From Fragilariopsis cylindrus CCMP1102 (lineage: Eukaryota > Bacillariophyta > Bacillariophyceae > Bacillariales > Bacillariaceae): 52,452 bases of DNA. The position numbers were made by a program, and so were the translations under genes. This document shows positions 8,748 through 44,320 of the stretch, piece by piece. Each line of letters begins with the position of its first letter. Position 1 is the first letter of the stretch. Location of the stretch: the NCBI GenBank assembly GCA_900095095.1, contig FMBT01000130.1, forward strand, positions 1 to 52,452. The letters are read 5' to 3'. The notes under the pieces were generated by a model, which saw only the letters and a program-made list of their open reading frames with translations, was not told where the DNA came from and did no database searches.

Positions 8748-10371
8748 TTTATCATTAAATAAATCAGAAATTTTTAATTCTGAATATGTGAATACGACTG
8801 GCAAATTAACTAACTTTGTTTGTTTGTTTGTTACCGGTATACATTTAATTTATGAGTGATTACCAGGTACTGTAACACGAGTTAATTAAGTTAGTACATC
8901 TCGTTTCAGATAGTGTTGACGACGCCGATAAAGAAATATTTCCGCTTATGATGTGAGGCACATTGTATTCTGTATTTGCGTCGAGTATACTGTACCGGGA
9001 CCGTCGTTGCTTTTCCTTACATCATTCCGAATGTGAAGGCGAAAAAAGACATCAGTCTCGTCAGAAAACAAAGGCAATAATTTTAGATTTAAATTTTCAA
9101 TTTCAACCTGTCACAAATTTAAGGTATGACGCACCATGAAATTTATTTCTACCTTAAGTGTTTTGCCTTTCGTTTTAGTTATAAATAAAAATATGGCGCG
9201 GACCTTTTGACTCATTTTTAGTCATGTTTTGTTCTTTTTTTTCTTCGCTGTTTCCGACCTCCTCTAAGAAATGATGAAAGGGTACGTCGTATGATGTTTT
9301 AAATGATAAAAAATCTTAATGATAAGATGAAAAATAACAGAATAGTGTTCTGGCATCTACGTCATTCTACCATATCTCGTCTGGAAGGGAATGATAGGAC
9401 GTTACTTGAAGGGGCAAGGAAAATTAAATAATAAATGAAATCTTCAGGAAACTTTTATAGAGCTTTGTTCTATCGAAGAATCTCCACTATTCTTCTATAA
9501 TATAATATGTATGATATATTATCATATCGGCATGAAGGGAATGTAGAAGAGTTAAGTTGAAAGAGTGTATAGAGAAGAGAGACATACTTCCTGTTGCTGT
9601 TCAAAGAGTAGTGGCGTATGCCATCGTCGACGTCGTTACTGGGCATTAAAGGAAAATTTGTTCATAATGAGATGATAATGGCGATAATGGGATAATGATG
9701 ATCCAGAGAAGAAGAATACCATACTGAAACCGACCGGGTTTGAATAGAATGAATCAATCGAATCGGAATGGCTATATAATATTATATAATACATATTATA
9801 TTCCGGTCGAAGGATGTACTTCTAGACAGAATCATCTTCAAAAACAACTGATTCTTTATTGAATTTAATAAGTTGAAGACGTTGAGTTGATTCGTACAAA
9901 ATATCCAAATCACTTCACGAGTTAGTTTGGTGAGGGTAACTTGTTTTGCTTTACTAGCGGTATTCATTAAAACTACTACTACTTGCATCAGGAATGGTAC
10001 AGAGAAGATCTATTTATTTAATATTCTCTTTTCAAACGACAACCTAGTATATGGACATGTGTGTATGTGTAAAATAAATGATAGACAGTAGAATTAATAC
10101 ATAAACAATAATAAACATTATCTTATCCTGAAGTAGACATATAATCACAGATATAAAACCAAAATAATATCGTCCAATAATTTCTCATAGATCTCATAGA
10201 GTAGAAGAATATTATTGGATATAAAAATATATTGATAGACTAGAAAAGTTTGATCTTAGATTTTTAAAGCCAGAACTAGAACTAAAAGGTACAATTGTTT
10301 TTCATTCATACCGTTTCTTTATTTGACCATGATAAACTTGATTTCTTCCTTCCGATATTATGTTTCTTTTT
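8748..10371. other. Gene-free interval
   Basis: About 1.6 kb between the cyclin start and the V-ATPase end. It is AT-rich with short A/T tracts and a TATAATATAATAT-like patch near 9498-9530. A 68-codon open frame at 9782-9988 has no recognisable features. I see no gene or RNA. Confidence 0.5.
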
Positions 10372-13171
10372 CTAAGCAGCATCATTGATGATCTGTTTGA
10401 AAGAGTATGGAGAGAAACGAATACCATCTGCCTTGAAAAATTTACTTTGGAATCGACCCAATGAAGACGAAGAGCGTGAAGGAAACATTCCAAGACATCC
10501 ATCATCAACAACACACCGAAGGTCACAGCAGCAAAAAGTCCAAATCCAAGGTACGTAGCAAACCAATTCACACTAGCGTACTGAGCATACACTTTTCCCA
10601 AAAGACAGTAGCAAGTTCAGAGTGGGCAAGAGAAAGAGCCCAAAGACGAAGGTAGGAGGCAGTGTTGGACACCATACCAAGGACAAATTCAATAGTTTCA
10701 ATGGCCTGATGAATAATAATCTCTCCCATTCCATGGTCTTCTTCTTCTTCACCGTGAGGGCCTCGACGTGCTCCTCGGTAGGAGGATGAGCACGGGCATT
10801 ATGTTGTCTACTGATCATGTAAGGCTTGGCAAACAACAAGATAGGTACAGAGGCAAACGCAAGGAAAAGTAGTACGTTTTGGACTTCAGCTTGACCTTTA
10901 TAATAGGTTCGTCACATCTCCAGGAGCAAGAGCAATATTGATAAGGGATGTAATCAAGTTAGGAGGTTGGCAACCGTCACCAGAACCACCGTAATCCAAA
11001 GGGCATTTGTCGGCAGTAGTATCCCCATCGACACAACTGTAACCCCATGGAGTACAGTAACCATTACCAGATTGATCACAAACAACCCAATCAGCTTGCC
11101 ATTCATCACCAGCAGGATCGTAACAAGTGGCGGATCCCATACGTTCTTGCCAATTAATACTCCACTTCATGAAGATTAAGATGACCATATAGATAAACAA
11201 CGCGGCAGCAAAAACCATCATGGGCAAGACCTCTAAGTATAAATCAAGTTTCTCTCCAAAATAAACAGCATTAACACCCTTTAAACAAGTACCCATAAAC
11301 ATTTGTAAGATACCAAAAATAACACTCAGCTTCATCTTGAAAGAGTTAAAGAAAAGAGTTCATTTTGAGTGACATGCCACATGGGATCCAAACCGAATGA
11401 ATAAACAGATTCAGCAGAACCATAGTCGGCAAGTTGATAGGCAACATCACCTTCTTCGACGCTCATATCCTCTTGTCCTTCAAACTCCCAACGACTTTTG
11501 AAGAGATTAAGACCAAGAGAAAAGCAATCATTGTACACCAAACCAGCATAGACAGCGAAAAATCCCATCATGAGGATCATGTAACGTCCAATGTGAAGAC
11601 CTTCCGATAACTCGTCCTGTTTAACACCTTCATTCTTCTTTTCGTTCCATACCAAACTGCATCCTGCTAAGAATAAAAATGTACCATGACCGATATCACC
11701 GTACATAACACCAAAGAGGAATGGGAATGTAGCTGCAGTGAAAAGAGCAGGATTGGCTTCTCTATAACGAGGGATACCGTACGTATTGACAAACTCTTGG
11801 TAAGCGTATGTGAACTTGTTTGTCACAAAGTGCGTAGGAGGAGTCGGCCAGGGTTGGGCAACGTTGTCGATAAGACTAGGCATTGACATGTCCATGTTTG
11901 CGTGTGCCTTTTCAACGGTACCCTTAACTTCATCAAGATTCTCTCCAATGACCCATCCTTCTCCACGGAGCATACCGGACACATCAGCTTTGAACATATT
12001 GAGAGAATGGTAGATTGCTTTCTCCTTCAATACATGCCAAGTCCAACGTTCACAATGCTTTGCAAGCATTTGACAGAGACGATAACGAGTATCCTGGTTC
12101 TTCAAAAGAACAGTACGCGAGTCGACGAGTTCTTGGGCGTTGTCTGTTAGCATATTATCAACAGATGCAGCATCGTCCATATCGGGAAGACTGTATCGGT
12201 GAGCCTGGAAGGCGTCACAGATCTTCTTTAGCTTGATTTCAATGGAATCGGATTTGTAGAAGATAATGAACACAGATTTTTCCATTAGCTGTCCAGTTTC
12301 TGGGTCGGTGATGGGTTGCTTAATGGGTGCAAATCTGATGAAGCAATTACCACGAGTGGCACGGAAAATCATACGTTCGAAGTTTGAACGTTCCTCGGTG
12401 GAAACTACGCCAGTAACAGAAGAGAATTTCATATCTAGATCGGGACGGCCTTCTTCCGATTCCAACAAGTTTTCTTTGTTCGCAGGTGTTTGTCCGGAAG
12501 TTAATTCACTGACAGCCAAACGAGGAGCATCGGTGATGAAGAAACGACGTGCCTTCTCCAATACTTCCTGTAATTCAACCTTTTCATTGTACTCGATTGT
12601 TAGCTTTTCGCTATACGAGTTCAGTTCCTTCAATTGACTTTCGTATCCCTCAAGTTCACCTTCCAAATTTTCCATAATCTTTCCAGAGGAAGGTGTTTCA
12701 GCGGTACCACCAGTACTGGATGCTTGATCGGATTCTAAAAATGTATCAACAGTTCCTGCCGATTCGCATTCGATGTTAAACTTGCCAATTTCGGTTGAAA
12801 AATAACGAAGCTTGCGCTCCAATTCGTCGCAACGCTTGACATATGAGACATATCGACGTTGGAAAGGAGTCAAATCGGGGTTTAACTGTACAGAAAAAAG
12901 GCGAGAACATAGTTATAACATAACAAACAGTGAGAAATGCATCTCAAAAATAAAAGGTGGCATTCGACAAAGTGAATGGTAATCATTATCTACAAGACGC
13001 AACAGAAAACAACACAACAACACAAGACTAAAGTGCAAATTAAATTAAACTTACATCGGTGAATTGGATTACACCCAATTTTCCAAGGTCTCCCAAACAG
13101 TCATGAGCAGCATCCTCATTCATAATGAGGGAGATATACTCCATCGGTTCGGAACGGAACCATTTTGCCAT
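10372..13171 (-). CDS. V-type H+-ATPase subunit a (Vph1 family)
   Basis: The membrane stator subunit that forms the proton half-channels of the V-ATPase. Exon 1 is 13055-13171 ([20 protein letters not shown]). A 169-nt intron follows, and exon 2 starts at 12885 with [12 protein letters not shown]. The soluble N-domain is continuous and ends with the membrane entry [20 protein letters not shown]. The second half breaks frame at about 11352-11355, 10912, 10755, 10593-10596 and 10452. All conserved parts remain readable: [40 protein letters not shown] with the essential Arg, [15 protein letters not shown] with the second Arg, and a [14 protein letters not shown] tail. Four breaks need one added base. 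The one near 10912 needs one removed or two added. The repaired length is about 877 residues, normal for the family. A six-Cys insertion follows the FMKW helix (10954-11161). Confidence 0.9.
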
Positions 13172-14331
13172 ATTGCTAGTTTCTTATTCCACTTCGCTTA
13201 TAGTGAAAAAGAAATAAAAAGAAAAAATTAATAGGAATTACAAGATACAATTGTATTGTTTTCCAATAACAATTTGCTTCACTTCTTGTTGATGATTGAT
13301 GGTGATAATAAAATATATTCGTTGGTTTTTGAATGTTCCTACACATAGTAGTTTACGGTTACTATTTGTAGGTAGGTGATCCGTGTATTTGCACGCATGA
13401 TTTGTCGTAAACGTCAAAACAGCGAGAAAAGCTCACTCACGCTCGCCTACTTGGCAGTTAAAAGCGCATGCCAACCCTCCAAAGACGATAGTAGCGATTA
13501 TTTTTAGTCGAACTAGTCGATTGAGGCTTCTTCAAATTTATTGTATTGTATTGATTTGTATTATTGATAGCTAACCTCCTTTCCTAGTTTGAGGTACTAC
13601 TGTAGTAATAGATTGTTAACTTTACTTTAAGTCCTTCCATTATCATATGAAAGAGTACAGTATACACCAATAATTGTTTAATGTTATAGACAATATACTT
13701 TTTACAGTACAACATGAATTGTGAGATTCCTGCTTAGAAATTTATATTTATGACAGACTTCTTCACATAGCTTCCTTCACAAAATTTCTTCCACACAGTA
13801 TAATGGTATCAGTAGGTAGGAACCCTGATAAGTATGGTAACGTTAAAATAATAAAAACATAAATCAATTGAGTTACAATTGCTTGTAGTTGGAAAATCTG
13901 ACTGCAAAATTTCGATGCATATCGATTACTAGGACCTACTACTAGTACTGTACTGTACACGCAATCATTTCATTGAGCACGACGCCACCACTTGCCATCA
14001 ATCATGATGATGATGTTTGTGCGTTGTGTAAAAAATCTTTACTTAGATTTTATACAGTATCGTCAACGCACACAAAAACATAGCCCTAACTCCTACAATT
14101 TCAAATTGTACCGCGCATAGCGCCTGAGGCGAGAATTCATATTTGTTCCTCCTCTATTCCTAGAGTTTTGTATTTTTAAATTCACATACCGTACAGCAGT
14201 AACACATCATAACAAATATAAAATCCATTCTTGGCATCATTGATGTCCGATGTGAGTAAGCTCAAGGCAAAGGTTTGAGACAACATTTCGAAGCATCAGG
14301 ACATAGAATAACGAAATACTATCCTCTCATA
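13172..14331. other. Divergent intergenic region
   Basis: About 1.15 kb between two divergently transcribed genes (V-ATPase subunit a and the ABC transporter), so it must hold both promoters. I recognise no core promoter motif. A 65-codon open frame at 13763-13960 on the minus strand has no support. Confidence 0.5.
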
Positions 14332-34463: not shown

Positions 34464-34952
34464 ATTGCATGTACTATATTTCTTTCTTTCAAAATCGAAT
34501 TTACTTATTTATTTTATGAATTACAAAATATTATTGATTAACAACAACACAGCACCACTGTCACTTGTATGTGCAATAATTTGTTTACTGATTGCCTTTT
34601 CCATCGTTCTTCACCACTTTTGGAGAAGAAATAGGAATTTCTTTCTATACTTTTATCTTATGAATTATTAAATTTATACTTTCCATCGTTCTTTACCACC
34701 TTTGGAGATGAAGCGAGGACTTGTTTCTTTACTTTTTTACCTTATGAATTGTTAAATCTGTACTTTTCCAACGTTCTTTGTTCACCACTTTTGGAGAAGA
34801 AGCGAAGATTTCTTTCTTTACTTTTTATCTTATGAATTATTAAATTTATACTTTTCCGGTACAATAATTTTGTTAGCGTCAATTACAACTTCACTTTTCT
34901 GGGGATTTGTTTAACCACGATCCAATCCCTTCAGAATATGTAACCATCCTCA
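34464..34952. other. Convergent intergenic region with tandem repeat
   Basis: It lies between the 3' ends of the NOL12-like gene (plus) and M14 paralogue 1 (minus). Most of it is a tandem repeat listed separately. No gene is seen. Confidence 0.6.
34596..34850. repeat. Tandem repeat, three copies of ~82-90 bp
   Basis: Copies start at about 34596, 34678 and 34761. Each contains CCATCGTTCTT or a close variant, then CACCACTTTTGGAGAAGAAG-like sequence, a pyrimidine-rich TTTCTTTCTTTAC stretch and CTTATGAATTATTAAATTTA. A degenerate partial copy of the tail lies at about 34480-34530. The copies differ by point changes and small indels, so they are not an exact assembly duplicate. Confidence 0.85.
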
Positions 34953-37429
34953 TTATGCCCATCGGACTGACTCTTGACTTCTAGCCAAATGCAAATCAAC
35001 ATCGTCCAAACTACCATTGTCATCCACATCCATATCCATATCCGATGATTTTATTTCTTGGACATTATAAGTAGTAATAGGCAGTCCACTATTATCGGTC
35101 GGCGTAGTCTTGAACATACCATCGCCATCGCCATCGATTGCTACTTGTCTACTCTTGCGTCGACGACGTGTCCGTCTGGCCAAGATGAAAAAAGTAATAC
35201 AGCTGATGGCAACCAAGAAAAATCCAATTGAGACACCCAAACTAACCCAAACTACATTTTTTGACGAGTCTCCGTTATCGTTGTCAGAATTAAAGATGCT
35301 AATGGGACGGCTAACAGGTTTTGCATATCCATTATCTGGATCGAATCTTTTATACATTTCGATGCCACCGACAAGCTTATCGATATCCTCAACAACGACT
35401 GTCACAGGAATGGAAAACCAGCGCATACGACCTTCCACTTCCTTTCCATCTTTTGTTGTGTATTTATAATTTGGATTAGTCCGCATGTTGGCTAAGTGAC
35501 TTTGTGGAGGAACCGATGGCTAAAATTTGATATCGACAGAGAATGATTTGATGTTAGGAGGAAAGAAAAAAAGAGTATGCAAGACGAAGTTTCTGCCATA
35601 TTTATTTATCATGTAAGTCTCTCTTACCTGATGATATTCCACCGGGGATTCCTTCCAGTTCTGATCGACAGTAGCACCAGCAACCAAGATAAGTCTATCG
35701 CCTACTTCATAGTCCCGTAGGTCTATTTCAGTCCGGAAAACAGGTCCCAATAGACTGGCGGATCTGGTGCCATAATTGTCATCATTACTATTCTTTATAA
35801 TATTCCTGTGGCCACCCATAGAGTTAGTGTCTATGAGAGTTACTGAATTGTGCCTAGAATTCAAGATACTGAATGGCTTTGTAACTGAGTCCATAGGAGA
35901 TGGATTTGGACCAGTTTTCGAGAAAAATCCTTTACCATTTGTTCTATGGGTAGGATATTTTTTGAAAGACTCTTCAATTTTTCCAAAACTGTCGTAGAGA
36001 TTATCTTCAGAACAAGCTGACGAATCGTCGGGGATATCTTCTTCCCTGACACCCATAGATCAGTATCTCCTATGTTCAAACCACCTCCAACAGTCCATTC
36101 AACAATGACGGTTTTAAGCGAATGGGGAACGGCCACTATTCGACTTTTATCACAAATATTTTCAGGGTTTCGTGTTAAAGGTACTATATCCTCAGAAATA
36201 GAAACACTATTTATGCCAAATATTGATACATATGGTTCGACGAGATCTGCCGATACAAGTGCAAGTCGCATGTTTCGTGCAATATCAAGGTTATCCACAT
36301 CATCCTTTGCGTGAAAAACATCTCGCATACTTCCAAGATCTTCCATCGTGACATCACTCGATACCGTCAATGAGACTGCTCGATTAGATTTTGCAGTATA
36401 CTTTGTCTTACTAGAGTCGTACCCTCCAAAGCTTTCTGGATTACACTGCTTAGTGCGAGGATTTTCCCATGATGCAGCATAAGCCCAGTCCTGGAAGGCC
36501 ATTTTGGGATCTGTGTTTTGAAAATACAAATCCAAAATTTTGCTGTTGCTAGGGGCAAATGGGTATACTTCCTCACCACCAACGGTTCTACTAAGGGATT
36601 CTGCGATGTCATGTAAAGTCACATGGTCTGGAGCCGAATATAGTTGAGAACCCCAGCTATAACTGATTTTATTTTCTTCTCCCTCCGTAAACGAAAGAGC
36701 AATCTGGAAAACATGGTCACGAAAGATCTCATTCATAGTTCTAGCAGTAATTGTTCTCATACAAGATTGTGATTCGTCGTTATTGTATGGGAAGTCCTCC
36801 AGTGGATCAACGGTCCCTTCTAAATGCGTCTGCCGATACTGTCCAAGAGCATTAGGATTCGGTACAACGACAATCTTTCGTGTTACAACCAACCGAGCAA
36901 GCCATTGACGATAAGCATCATCAATTCCTTGTGATCTGAGCTCTGATCGACATGATTGAGCTTCAATTATTTCTTGCTGCCAATTCTTTGCTTCCAGATT
37001 AGGTTTCGCCTCACACGCCGCCGCATTCAGCAATATAGATGCTGCTTCCATCACTACAGAAGGACCGAACTGCTGATCTCCGTGCATACTTCCCGTCCAT
37101 AGAATCTCGGGTAGGGAGGCAGCAGAATTGGAACCTATTGGGTGGGCGACATAATCCTGGATCGTAAAGAAATGATTCAAACAACCAGAATGATGCACAT
37201 CGTATGGGCAGTCTTCACTCGTTCCAGCTTGGTCCAATCCATATTCCTGTTGAGATGTTGAGACTTTTACAAGATTAGGGTATTGTTTTTTCCAAGCAGA
37301 TAACGTCTCAACAATTTCGTTCGGTTCCCATAGATGAAAAGAATCTATTGCAGAAGTTGATGATGCAACGAAGTAGACAAGTGAAAGAAAGGAAGGTATA
37401 ATAATACGTCTAGCCATGATGATGTACAT
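34953..37429 (-). CDS. M14 carboxypeptidase-like pseudoenzyme, membrane-anchored
   Basis: Exons 35628-37429 and 34953-35519 (108-nt intron); about 789 residues. The signal peptide lies in the first 28 residues (PSFLSLVYFVASSTSA). Met5 could also be the start. The M14-like domain follows, then a beta-rich domain, a TM helix (VVWVSLGVSIGFFLVAISCI) and a basic/acidic cytosolic tail. It is a paralogue of the gene at 40876-43776, but active-site residues are changed. The zinc motif reads HGDQ (116-119) instead of HGDE. The DPNRDFP motif reads DPLEDFP. The third zinc His is Thr (248). The catalytic Glu position is Val (356). The protein is therefore unlikely to be a metallopeptidase and may bind peptides. 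One frame break at about 36045-36050 is cured by one added base (G run); the second-frame part continues through GPVFRTEIDLRDYEVGDRLI. Confidence 0.88.
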
Positions 37430-37787
37430 GTGCTTTATCTTCTAGTTGGCTTGTAATGAACGAAGAATTGTAATCGACTACGAGAATTTGTTTATTTATA
37501 TTCTATTATTTGTTGGCATCATACTTGTGAGCGAGGATAATTGTGTTTTGATCATAAGCAATTAGCGATCAAGCGATACAGTCGTACATGCAAGAGGTTA
37601 ATTTGGGGAGGTGGAGTGCTTGGTTAATTAAAAAGGAGGGAGGTGTTTAAAACCCTAACCTTAATAATCCGAGACTAACACTCGTGACCGAAACAACAGG
37701 ATTGTTCGATGACGATCGAGTTTTTCTCATAAAAAGATACGATCAATCAACAACAACAACAACAACAATAACAACTTCACTGCTTCG
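37430..37787. promoter_or_regulatory. Divergent promoter region with telo-box-like motif
   Basis: A 358-bp gap between divergently transcribed genes. It contains AAACCCTAA at 37650-37658, identical to the plant telo-box, about 130 bp upstream of the kinase-phosphatase start, and a CAACAACAA tract at about 37747-37770 just before the ATG. Regulatory meaning is inferred only. Confidence 0.4.
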
Positions 37788-40576
37788 ATGCTAGTAACTA
37801 GATGGATAAATGACATCTGTAACAGACCAAGGGATTCAATGATGGTGGCGATATTTGCTTTGGGTTGGCTGTTGCTCACGCAATTCCCTACTGCTGAATC
37901 TTTTATATTGCCGAAAACAACATATCCGCCGCCTCCGACTGATACTATTTCTCACCTACAAAGAAGACGACAAACACTGCGAATTCGTACTGAGCTCTTT
38001 GCGGTAGAACAAAAGGACCATATATCAACAGAAAACGTATCAAACAAAGAAGCAAAAGAAAGTTTCGTAGCAGCAAAAGATGACCTTTCTATAGGGAAGA
38101 ACATTGGATCTGGATCTTATGGTACGGTCCATTTACTTCAGTCTACAACAAAACAATCTACAAGTAATTTTGTCGGCAAACGTCCATGGCGATACGAAGA
38201 ATTATTGCTTAGAAAGCGGGAGAAGGCGCCGGCGGAGGAGGAAAACGTCGACGTTGTAGCAATGAAAGAACGTGCGGAACGTTGTATGTACTACTGGAGG
38301 GTTGAACAGCACTGCTTTACAAAGTTAGAACCCCATCCACAATTGCCACTCTTTCTGGGAACATCAACTACTAAAAAGATAAGGAAAATGATGGTAACGA
38401 ATGGATGATGTTTGGATTTGTGGGAGAAATCCAACAAGAACCATCCGGAGATGATACAATGATAGAAACTCCAGTTCCTGCACCTACTATGCAAGATCTG
38501 ATGAAATTGGACATCAAAGAATCAACCCTCGCTAAGCACGAATTACGAAATATCGCTAAAGCATTAGGTACAGCATCATACGAGGAGACCTTAGACACGA
38601 TCTTACCATCTTTATTGGTCGTTTTACAACATGTCCATAAGAATAAAATTGTCCACAGAGACATTAAGCCTGCAAATCTATTGGTACATGATAATAACCT
38701 ATTATTAATGGATTTTGGTAGTGCCGCAGATCTAGAACCATCCTCGTCGTCATTGACACGTGGTAGTGGATTAATGAGTTCCCTCTTATCCTCAAAAAAA
38801 CAGCGTGTGGGTCTCGAAAGTGGGAATCGCGTCGCTGTATCACCCGTTTATACGGCACCGGAAATTTTCATCGATATAAATGATGCACCGACTTCATTCG
38901 ATATCTTTTCGTCTGGACTTATTTTCTGTCAGCTTTTATTTGGTTATCTAGAGGACCGAGTCGATGCGGGATTTCGACAGCAACTCGTAGATGATGCCGA
39001 TTGCGATCTGAATTTATGGCTAAACAACTTATTATCATCGAAGTTACGTCCTGCAGGACTCGGCCAAGCCCTTGATTATTTAGTAGAACGACCTGGACTT
39101 TGGGATTTGTTAGCAGAGATGCTCTCAAAGGAACCAAGGAAGCGTCCGAGTGCCCGAAAGGCATTGCAGCGATGGCAGGATATACAATCTTATCGGGATG
39201 GAGAAAATGACGAGAATGAGAACATCAACGCTAACAATGACCATTCTTATTTCTCTCTTGTGGTCGAGGCATTAGAAACATGCGAAATTCCTTCCATCAG
39301 TCGCCCGCTGCATTTTGTTGCGACTTTTTCGAGAGCGAGGTCACTTGGACTAGTTTTATCAGAAAAAGACGAAGAAGCAGATGATAGCGATAGCGATAAC
39401 GATAACGATAACGAAGAAAATCAGTTTCTATGGAAGGCAGCTACCAAAGATTCCTTCCCAGGAGAAGTGTTTGTCAAGGATATCGTGACTGACGGTCAGG
39501 CAGATGAGCTTGGTATCTTTGAGATAGGCGACCGATTATCTGGTATTGGAGAGCTTCCCTTCATTGATGGAGGATTCGAAAAGGCAGTTGGAATGTTACA
39601 GGATCAACCGAAGGCAACCAAGAATGTTCGACTACATTTCGATCGGACATCAGTCCGCTTCAATGAGGCTATAGACATGAAACCCCCTCAAGCTAGTATC
39701 CAAATAGCCGACCGTGGAGCCTGGTCTTCGAAGGGTCGGAGGAAAGCACAAGAGGATACCTTCATCTTACACGAGATTCATGATGCAACTGATCGATCTG
39801 TATTGGTGGGTGGGGTTATGGATGGCCATGGTGGAACGAGTGCATCCCAAGTTGTATCAGAAGTCCTTCCAAGTTTGCTTTCTAATCAGCTTGTGATTAA
39901 AGATAGATCGCGATCGGTCTGTGATGCGCTAGAAGACTCTTGGATTTATATCTGCAAAACTTACCAGCAAAATTGCCTGGACGATGGAGAATGCATTGCG
40001 GACTATGATGCTATGGAAGGGATTCTCCAAGCCGACACGGGCAGCAAAGATCTGAAGGCCGGAACGACTTGCTCTCTGATGGCTTTAGACGAAACCTCAA
40101 GTGAGTTGACTTTGTTAAACTGTGGAGATTCGCGGAGTCTTGTTGTTAGAGAGGACGGTAAGGTGAAGTTTGCTACACTAGATCATACGCCACAATCTGA
40201 AGAAGAGCGATTATTACAGGGTATACAACAAGGCCTTGACTACTCGTTACCGAAATGTCGATTATCTCGCTGGTCACTCAAAGTAGGTGATTATGAATAC
40301 GCAGTGGGCAGATCACTCGAGGGCGTCTTTGCGACTTCCAAGGGGATTGTTAGTGATCCAGACTTATCAACTTTGACAGTCCAAGCTGGTGAACTTTTGG
40401 TGAGCGCCACGGATGGCTTATGGAATGTCATGGATTCCAACGAGGTTGCAATGCATCTATACAAGATGCGAACAAAAAATGGAATGTCAGCCCATGATGC
40501 TGCTAGTACACTTTGTTCAATGGCTATACGGAAAGGATCCTCAGACAATGTCAGTGCCGTTGTAGTATATTTGTAG
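37788..40576 (+). CDS. Kinase-PDZ-PP2C fusion protein, predicted plastid
   Basis: One single-exon gene of about 929 residues joining opposing enzymes. A signal peptide (hydrophobic VAIFALGWLLL) ends in AES-F at 36-39, followed by a Pro-rich, basic transit-like segment, as in diatom plastid preproteins. The Ser/Thr kinase domain (about 100-480) has G-loop GSGSYG (107-112), AMK with the ATP-binding Lys, HRDIKPANLL, MDFGSAADL and SPVYTAPEIF. A PDZ domain (about 510-605) has VFVKDIVTDGQADELGIFEI then GDRLSGIGELPF. The PP2C domain (about 625-929) has RRKAQEDTF, GGVMDGHGG, GTTCSLMALDE, LLNCGDSRS, ATDGLWNVMDS and GSSDNVSAV, all metal-binding positions present. A single -1 break at 38373-38377 (A5 run) splits the kinase domain between lobes; one added A gives 930 codons and reads through EWMMFGFVGE. 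Both enzymes look active. The substrate is unknown. Confidence 0.9.
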
Positions 40577-40875: not shown

Positions 40876-43776
40876 CTAATTGATACTGGGAATTTCTATG
40901 CCATCGTAACTTTCATCGTCACCATATTCGTCATTAGTTCGGTCAGAGTACGGTTCAGGATCAAAAGAAAGATCGTCCAGGCTGGCATCGTAGCTATCTC
41001 CTTGTTTGAGTTTAATTCCAGAATGACGGCAACAAAAGCACCTTATACAACAAATTGAAAATGCCACAAATAGTAAAATTCCAACTAGATACTGCCACAA
41101 GGCTACCGGAAACCACAATTGATCTTTTTGTGCAACCTTCGAAGGTTTGACTCCACCATCTTTTTGCGCAGGCTGTGATGGTTTGACTCCACCCTTGTTG
41201 ATACTACTTTCACTAAATCTTGGATACAACTCAATGGTATTTACAGAATGTTCGTTCCGTGTCCCAACATTATCGTCAAAGTCGCCGATTACAACAGTAA
41301 CTGGAACCGAGAACCAGTCTATTCTGCCTCGAATGTGTTTACCGTTACTCTCGTGGTGATAATTTGGATCGGTACGGGCGTTGACAATGTGACTTTGAGG
41401 AGGCACATTAGGAAGTATGTTGGGCGGTTGGTTCTTCCAAGATTGGTCAACCCTTGCGGATGCCATCACCATAATCTTATCTCCTTCCTTCATGTTTCCT
41501 AGGGGAATGCTCGTGCGGAAAATGGGTCCATTGGTCATTTTAATACCAGTTACGCTTTCTTCCGGACGTGGATAAGAACCTTGTACCGAGAAGAAACCAG
41601 TTCCGTTCGTTGCTCCTCCTACTCTTTGCAATTTGTCGGTACTCGAGGGTTGCATCCAACATCCTACCTCTCCGGCCACATCGTCCCACTTCGCATACCA
41701 AAGCTCTGTAGAATCAATCGTCATTGCACCTCCTACCGACCATTCAATATCTACCATTTTTGCATTTTTGGCGACCATAACCGCTTTGGTGTCCAAACAG
41801 CTATTCGATTTCCTTTCTGTCATTGAAACTATATCATCAGTCAATGCCAGCTTGTTGACACCCACGACAGTCACGTAGGGCTCAACCATGTCAGCTGCTA
41901 ATAATGCTAAACGAATATTACGAGAAACGTGTCCATTGCCTTTAGTATCACGACTCAAAATGTCCGCGGAGTTACCAAGATCGCTCTTTGGTTCCTTACT
42001 ATTACTAGTTTCTACTAGTACGTTGAAGACTCGTAAGGTGGAATTATTGTATATAGTCTTTTCTTTGGGATAACCTCCAAACTGCGTGGGTGTGCAGGGA
42101 GTAACTTTATCTGGAGTCCATGAGCCAGCGTAAGCCCCTGTGTATTCAATTTAAGAAAATTATTATAGGAGTACGATACACCCAATTTTGGAATGAAATG
42201 AAATGAAATGAAATGAAATGAAATGAAATGAAATGAAATGAAATAAAATGAAATAAAATACAAGATAAATCAAATGAGACAAAAATTGCTACTGCAAATT
42301 TGCTTATTGAATAGACTGGCAGTGAAAGTTTTAGAAAAATGACAGAGAGACAATCAGTTACAGATAGTATTGTGTATGCAACTTACAATCTTCCATACCA
42401 CCTCTAACGAAGTATACTTCGTCATTCATGGTCCCGTATTCGTATGGTTTACTATTACTCCAACCAGCTCCATAACGGCTGTACGCACCACCGATAGCTG
42501 CCTGTGCTTCATCGTCAGGAGAAAGATGATCTAACCATGAGGGGGAACCCCATTCGTACGCAACAACTTCCATACCAGCATGGAATGTTAGTGCTAACTG
42601 GAACATATGTTCTCTGTAGATTTCGTTCGCAGTTCGTCCAGCGATCGTTTGCATACATTTACTAGAATCGGTTAAATCATATGGAAAATCTCGATTAGGA
42701 TCAATCGTACCTTCCGTACGTTTATTCCGATAATATCCGAGAGCTGCAAAGAAGAAGAAAAAAAAAGCAGGGGTGATTAAGTACAAGCAAAAATTGAGTC
42801 TTCGTAACGTCTTAGATAAGTTATGTATACAACTCTCCCAGATCTAGATATCAGATTACATAGTAATAACATTGGTTACGCATGAAATTATTTGGGATGG
42901 GAAGTTCTTGTGACTAACAAAAAGAAGAATATAAAAAAGAAAGGGTCAAATCTTACCGTTCGTGGTAGGAGCGACAACGATACGTCGGGTAGTAACCAAC
43001 CTCGCTAACCATTTACGATGAACGTCGTCGATTCCTTTGTTTTTAAGTGTTTGTCGACATTTTTTTGCTTCCTTTAATTCCAAATCTAAAGAAGATGCCG
43101 ATAATGATAATGATGATCGACGTGGTAATCCTTCACAATGTGCCGACTCCAATAATAATGATGTTGCCTCCATAACACTTGTCGGTCCGACACGTTCATC
43201 ACCATGAAGGCAACCACTCAAAAAAACTTCAGGTAGGTAGGAAGAAGTAATACTATCTATTGGATGTGCAGTATAATCTTGTAGTGTAAAGAAATAATTA
43301 GGACAACCATCAGATTCTGTATAGAATGGACAATCTTCTTTATTTCCTGCTGCTGGTAACCCATATGCTTCCTGAGCAGTTGTAACTTGAATCAAATGTG
43401 GATACTTCTTCTGCCATTCATCTAATATTTCAGAAATCTTTGATGACTTCCAGAGTTCGTATTCTATCACGTTGTTATTGTCTTGTTGTTCTTCTTCCGC
43501 TAGATTACGTGGTTGTTGTTGTTGTTGCTGCTGTTGTTTGTCAATTATTTCTGGTTCATTATTATTATTAATATTATTATTATTACTATGCGATTGTTGA
43601 TTGTTTCGTAACTGATGATTCATGATAGGATCAGTTGATTCGGTCACAGTGGAAGAAGAAGATCCACCAACATCGTCGATAAGTAGCAATGAAAATAATA
43701 ATAATAGTAGTACATATCCGGCGGGGAAAACAGTCCTTCGCAAAAGATAATCGAGACGGTAGCAATCCTTTAACAT
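40876..43776 (-). CDS. M14 zinc carboxypeptidase, membrane-anchored
   Basis: Exons 42957-43776, 42387-42743 and 40876-42137; introns 213 and 249 nt; 812 residues, frame continuous. An N-terminal hydrophobic segment (YVLLLLLFSLLLIDD) is a signal peptide or anchor, followed by an Asn/Gln-rich linker with a Q8 run. Peptidase motifs are complete: HGDER with zinc ligands His191 and Glu194, APTTNALGYYRN, TIDPNRDFPYD with the substrate-binding Arg, FHAG with zinc ligand His328, and VLVETSNS with the catalytic Glu435. It most resembles the CPN/CPE-type (M14B) carboxypeptidases that remove C-terminal residues. A beta-rich domain follows, then a TM helix (YLVGILLFVAFSICCI) with Cys-rich flanks and an acidic tail. 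It is predicted to be an extracellular or lumenal type I membrane enzyme. It is a paralogue of the gene at 34953-37429. C-terminal specificity cannot be told from sequence. Confidence 0.92.
42187..42257. repeat. (AAATG)n pentanucleotide repeat in M14 intron
   Basis: About a dozen AAATG units with a few AAATA variants, inside the second intron (42138-42386) of M14 paralogue 2. Likely length-polymorphic. Confidence 0.92.
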
Positions 43777-44320
43777 TATTACAGCAGCGGATAGTAATAA
43801 ACTCTAGCTAGCTAGATATGAGCAACTCAAGTCACAGTACACAATTTGTTAACGTGGTAGTATCTTGCATACCAATACCGTAGTACAGATTTTTATATGT
43901 TGTGAATTTTGTTGTTGTAAAATAAAACAGAGTATGAAATAATGCCTCCAGTATAAATCTCAAATTGAAAATCCAAGGAAGAGCGAAACAGCAGGCCGGC
44001 CCTTCTAGGATTTTACATGATTTAGTTCTTTAAAAGTGTAGACTGATTTGAAGATGGCCTAAGAAATCCTAAAGTAAAGGATAGCTATTTGCTAGTTAAT
44101 CACAGGACCCTTCAGCAGCGCAAGAATATCTAAACAGAATGCTTTTACACGCGGCGATATGAAAATTGAACATCAACGACACAAATCAACGAAGAATCAT
44201 CAGCAACACATCACAAATCTAACGTTCTTTTTTAACCTTGAAGGAAACTTTTAAACTTGTACTCGGACGAGCATCATAATAAAACATATACCATCATACA
44301 AAACAAAACAAAAATCAATC
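43777..44320. other. Divergent intergenic region
   Basis: About 540 bp between M14 paralogue 2 (minus) and the TPR protein (plus). No gene or clear motif is seen. Confidence 0.5.

Follow-up and report, generated by a model that had tools for sequence, protein, structure and literature searches.

A candidate diatom gene in which an STN7/Stt7-like kinase is joined to PDZ-like and PP2C phosphatase domains in Fragilariopsis cylindrus

The window, by which we mean the whole 52,452-nucleotide stretch of DNA that was analysed, is contig FMBT01000130.1 of the diatom Fragilariopsis cylindrus CCMP1102 (assembly GCA_900095095.1), and corresponds to contig C394 of the genome searched (67.9 Mb, 818 contigs). 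The gene content of this genome marks it as a diatom's, with 27 matches for silicon transporters (best 1.1e-226) and 104 for light-harvesting proteins. On its plus strand, at 37788–40576, lies what we term the kinase–phosphatase gene, which has a signal-peptide-like start with an AES-F motif, followed in order by protein kinase, PDZ-like and PP2C domains. It is flanked by two related genes on the minus strand, at 34953–37441 and 40876–43803. In the former the reading frame changes near 36040, and inspection by eye showed no intron there. One exon of the latter matches Pfam Peptidase_M14 (9.3e-8), while three other stretches gave no match; an apparent intron of the latter, placed by eye, holds an AATGA repeat of ~13.6 copies (42192–42259). 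A tandem repeat of ~3 copies of an 82-base unit is found at 34596–34857.

The window has a second copy in the same genome, on contig C99, with two blocks that are 99.2–99.5% identical and a stretch at 8879–13953 that is 95.6% identical. Across the aligned parts of C394 and C99 there are 414 difference events, none of which falls between 33227 and 50000, and the C99 copy of the kinase–phosphatase gene is identical over 5199 bases. Elsewhere, the prokaryote contigs gave one weak bacterial kinase match and the viral contigs none, neither set being informative on diatoms.

The gene is written in two overlapping open frames. The first (37788–38408, plus strand; 231 residues from stop to stop, or 206 from the first ATG, which was used) encodes the signal-peptide-like start, a transit-peptide-like stretch and the kinase N-lobe, and alone gave 0 Pfam matches. 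The second (38375–40576, plus strand; 733 residues) encodes the remainder of the kinase, the PDZ-like domain and the PP2C domain, and alone matched Pfam Pkinase (1.5e-22) and then PP2C (1.9e-20) on the same strand. They meet at five consecutive A (38373–38377, plus strand), where the frame shifts by one base; the sequence there is the same on C99. When the two were read jointly as a 929-residue protein, the matches were 1.1e-23 for Pkinase and 3.2e-20 for PP2C. We rejected two separate genes at this position in view of the overlap of the frames, the first of which holds no part of the kinase other than its N-lobe. The initial annotation had proposed a single polypeptide running from kinase through PDZ to PP2C; the order on one strand stands, but the coding sequence is split between overlapping frames, with no convincing intron to join them among the 40 shortest of 243 candidates.

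Every motif that was sought in the two enzymes could be located, in keeping with the earlier claim that both have their catalytic motifs. In the kinase N-lobe (38079–38378, plus strand), encoded by the first frame, these are GSGSYGTV (38106–38129), VVAMK with the kinase Lys (38253–38267) and WRVEQ with the alpha-C Glu (38295–38309). The second frame encodes the others, HRDIKPAN (38654–38677), MDFG (38708–38719) and TAPE (38852–38863), within the part matched by Pfam Pkinase (38540–39169, plus strand). The PP2C domain (39716–40552, plus strand) contains MDGHGG (39818–39835), NCGDSR (40118–40135), DGLWN (40412–40426) and SSDNVS (40538–40555), as well as KAQEDTF, so that the metal-binding Asp/Glu motifs are kept, although many relatives have a D at the place of the N in DGLWN. 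The motifs located in both domains are presumed to have their usual catalytic roles. The NCBIfam matches were to generic kinase and PP2C families and fell short of the family cut-offs.

Between the two enzymes lies a divergent PDZ-like domain (39314–39667, plus strand) with an SLGLVL loop (39341–39358) and an acidic insert (39383–39418, plus strand) that contains a GATAAC repeat (39383–39414). Pfam gave no PDZ match here even at E 10, also when the acidic insert was removed. By contrast, a phmmer search of the segment against the PDB (E up to 10) matched 29 distinct chains, all of which we take to be PDZ-bearing, although PDZ appears in only a few of their names. The best match (1.9e-7) was a chain with two PDZ domains whose best single stretch reached 1.1e-3; the best chain with one domain reached 1.9e-4. 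A profile was also built from PDZ segments of this genome (30 loci, of which 22 were read; 3 were discarded because of stops and 3 because they were duplicates, leaving 16). It gave the segment 14.4 bits, whereas none of 1000 shuffles exceeded 6.1 bits. PDB matches and the genome profile speak for the earlier call of a PDZ domain and the Pfam result speaks against it, and we describe the domain as PDZ-like. Single-sequence structure models were unusable (mean pLDDT 35.1 and 32.5), and a search of the genome for further copies of the segment returned that on C99 and no other.

The most informative point, absent from the earlier note, is the likeness of the kinase to STN7/Stt7. The STN7 query was a provisional sequence; against the PDB it retrieved MsStt7d (4ix3) at 8.2e-35, far ahead of the next kinase (1.1e-11), and it can therefore be taken as STN-like. 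Searched against the whole genome, it found a kinase on contig C88 (1.5e-16) and the kinase–phosphatase gene (3.8e-15), followed by the next kinase at 5.5e-8. The C88 kinase, the nearest relative in this genome of the kinase studied here, is a stand-alone STN7/Stt7-like kinase of 453 residues in one open frame, on the minus strand (C88:296726–297310 region; L003:1330–2691), with a signal-peptide-like start and no PP2C match in Pfam. In the C-lobe tail, the kinase–phosphatase gene scored 93 with C88 and 90 with STN7, whereas its scores with seven further kinases from this genome were 56 or less. From the side of STN7 the lead was smaller (90 versus 78 with a kinase that we label CDK1-like), and the MsStt7d tail did not discriminate (48 versus 42–50 with others). 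A profile of STN7 and MsStt7d gave the kinase–phosphatase gene 55.3 bits, versus 48.6 for the next genome kinase, CK2-like by our own labelling. With the kinase of this gene as sole query, MsStt7d was not among the best 60 of 846 PDB matches, nor was it among the best 60 of 1223 when that kinase was aligned to C88.

STN7, MsStt7d, the kinase–phosphatase gene and C88 formed one group in a tree of 11 rows (support 98/95) and in one of 20 rows (100/99). The background of the latter comprised seven kinases of this genome and nine from prokaryote or virus contigs, with no STN8 or CDKB row. The seven were drawn from ten loci (L055 and L070 repeat L054, and L075 repeats L074), with other kinases from the STN7 search omitted; the nine were drawn from 11 loci, omitting L059, which is the L058 match, and L064, which has 98 residues and a stop. 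In a 19-row tree without the provisional STN7, the group of MsStt7d, the kinase–phosphatase gene and C88 was supported at 95/92, and without C88 the STN grouping held at 100/98; on removal of both C88 and STN7, support dropped to 86/82 with a long-branch warning. When the second-frame part of the kinase was used by itself, with three long rows omitted, support was again 100/99, and the kinship is therefore independent of how the frames are joined. By these sequence comparisons, the kinase of the kinase–phosphatase gene groups with STN7/Stt7.

As to the frame step, breaks of this kind are not rare in this assembly. In a control restricted to genes expected to work (CCT, HSP70 and silicon transporters), a hand count that took each likely haplotype pair as one locus found overlapping or touching pieces in different frames, with no room for an intron, at 8 of 36 loci: 3 of 13 for CCT (C347, C655 and C451, of which C451 lies at the end of its contig), 2 of 14 for HSP70 (C693 and C70) and 3 of 9 for silicon transporters (C600, C639 and C77). 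Some of these loci may themselves be pseudogenes. An assembly error is the simplest reading of the step at 38373–38377, and is likely though not proven. Were the step real, the locus would be a recent pseudogene or allele, or would yield a short product of the first frame or a PDZ–PP2C protein from a later start, and the strain would have no working kinase/phosphatase. Both assembled copies do carry the step, and among 243 frame-compatible GT/GC–AG introns that could join the frames, none of the shortest 40 was convincing. The C99 copy is however no independent witness, because the two contigs are identical there over more than 16 kb and perhaps derive from the same reads; moreover, both the N-lobe before the step and the 733 codons after it are open, with their motifs intact. 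We hold a real step to be unlikely, while granting it some weight.

A second alternative takes its precedent from oomycetes. Five kinase–PP2C proteins with cyclic-nucleotide (cNMP) domains are described in Phytophthora sojae (PMC10925823), and P. infestans is credited with four PP2C-bearing kinases in all, two of them PKG-like (PMC3019232). The kinase domains of that PKG-like pair are reported to be inactive, with a proposed role in binding phosphatase substrates, and the same role is proposed for PP2C–cNMP–kinase proteins of oomycetes and plants more widely (PMC3019232). One of the two enzymes described here could likewise have ceased to be an enzyme, the kinase-like domain, for example, serving to bind substrates of the phosphatase. 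Against this, both the kinase and the PP2C domain retain all motifs sought; we consider the loss of one enzyme quite unlikely and expect that both would be active.

The site of action is predicted from the N-terminus. A signal-peptide-like stretch (37788–37901, plus strand; by sequence and hydropathy) ends in PTAES and is followed by F, so that the AES-F motif of the initial annotation is indeed present, with F directly after AES and behind a hydrophobic stretch. A transit-peptide-like stretch follows (37902–38078, plus strand; by composition), whose first 35 residues include 2 acidic ones and 7 K/R/H. As this assignment is based on motif and composition, AES-F might have arisen by chance and the protein might be secreted or reside in another compartment. 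The hydrophobic start, the F directly after AES, the acidic-poor stretch behind it and the kinship of the kinase with thylakoid kinases all speak against this, which we regard as very unlikely, and the protein is predicted to locate to the plastid.

Alternative splicing, by an intron at 38284–38378 or elsewhere that would join the frames and shorten the kinase domain, is highly improbable: this 95-base candidate has the best donor (GTATGT) and leaves both frames open, but it would remove the alpha-C helix that is also present in the C88 kinase, and its acceptor, AAAAAG, is poor, since CAG or TAG closes each of three introns that we placed by eye nearby.

Taken together, these data point to one nuclear diatom gene for a plastid protein of ~929 residues, in which PDZ-like docking and PP2C phosphatase domains follow an STN7/Stt7-type Ser/Thr kinase, and whose frame would be continuous in the living cell. 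We put the probability of this reading at about one half.

The known systems nearest to such a protein are found in plants and green algae, where antenna and photosystem proteins are substrates of STN7/Stt7 and STN8, and where distinct PP2C proteins, PPH1/TAP38 and PBCP, counteract these kinases (PMC11314055, PMC9237682, PMC6056723). According to one review, neither red algae nor diatoms have homologues of STN7/STN8 (PMC3525998), and another sees no evidence of plant-like state transitions in diatoms (PMC9237682); elsewhere, state transitions are described as differently realised in diatoms (PMC13287000).

The kinase–phosphatase protein resembles STN7/Stt7/STN8 in that its kinase groups with them and in having, by motif, a plastid-type start. 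It differs from them in that its chain also bears PDZ-like and PP2C domains, and in its relation to the membrane. STN kinases have a transmembrane segment beside the kinase (PMC3525998), whereas the protein described here has none beyond the signal peptide: over both frames, the strongest hydrophobic stretch is the signal peptide itself (1.63), with a stretch of the kinase C-lobe in second place (1.39). Nor does it have the lumen-exposed cysteine pair that precedes the membrane segment of STN7/Stt7, since the one cysteine before the kinase lies inside the signal-peptide stretch. Because both the membrane segment and the cysteine pair are absent, we would not expect it to sense redox state in the manner of STN7.

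With TAP38/PPH1 and PBCP the gene has in common the PP2C fold family and a would-be opposing role; in plants these are separate proteins (PMC6056723), whereas here the PP2C domain is on the kinase chain. In a PDB search with the PP2C domain, TAP38 (PP2C 57, 4yzg) ranked 48th of 55 rows by E-value, behind PPM1B, PPM1K and others. By this ranking, the domain does not appear specially near TAP38, and the fusion need not therefore be one of the green STN/TAP38 pair.

The PP2C–cNMP–kinase proteins of plants and oomycetes, which the initial annotation had named as a known order and which the oomycete papers bear out (PMC3019232, PMC10925823), likewise combine a kinase and a PP2C domain in one chain. 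They differ in having a cyclic-nucleotide domain, with PP2C before the kinase, whereas here the order is kinase, PDZ-like, PP2C, and no cNMP match was found in Pfam. The passages of these papers that deal with such proteins mention neither a PDZ domain nor STN kinship (PMC10925823, PMC3019232). The oomycete TKL kinase PITG_11566 has a C-terminal PDZ domain after its kinase, and thus the kinase-then-PDZ order found here, but belongs to a different kinase group, and its description mentions no PP2C domain (PMC3019232).

If the chain is made as proposed, the PDZ-like domain would hold one plastid protein, perhaps a thylakoid protein, by its C-terminus, and the kinase and the phosphatase would act in turn on the docked protein or on each other. 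Phosphorylation of the docked target would then track the ratio of the two activities, and would fall back without a separate phosphatase. In this sense, we infer that the protein could work as a self-resetting switch.

In the open-access papers searched, we came across no account of a kinase–PDZ–PP2C protein or of a diatom kinase resembling STN7/STN8. What is new here, on sequence evidence, is that a kinase fused to PDZ-like and PP2C domains is akin to the STN kinases. We tentatively suggest, as a possibility that we rate well below even odds, that diatoms keep STN-type kinases and that one of these bears on its own chain both a docking domain and the phosphatase that opposes it, forming a single-molecule plastid switch that would replace the two-protein STN/TAP38 system of green plants. 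It is still debated how diatoms regulate their light harvesting, and two STN-like kinases in a diatom, one of them fused to a PP2C domain, would give named genes for direct tests of plastid protein phosphorylation.
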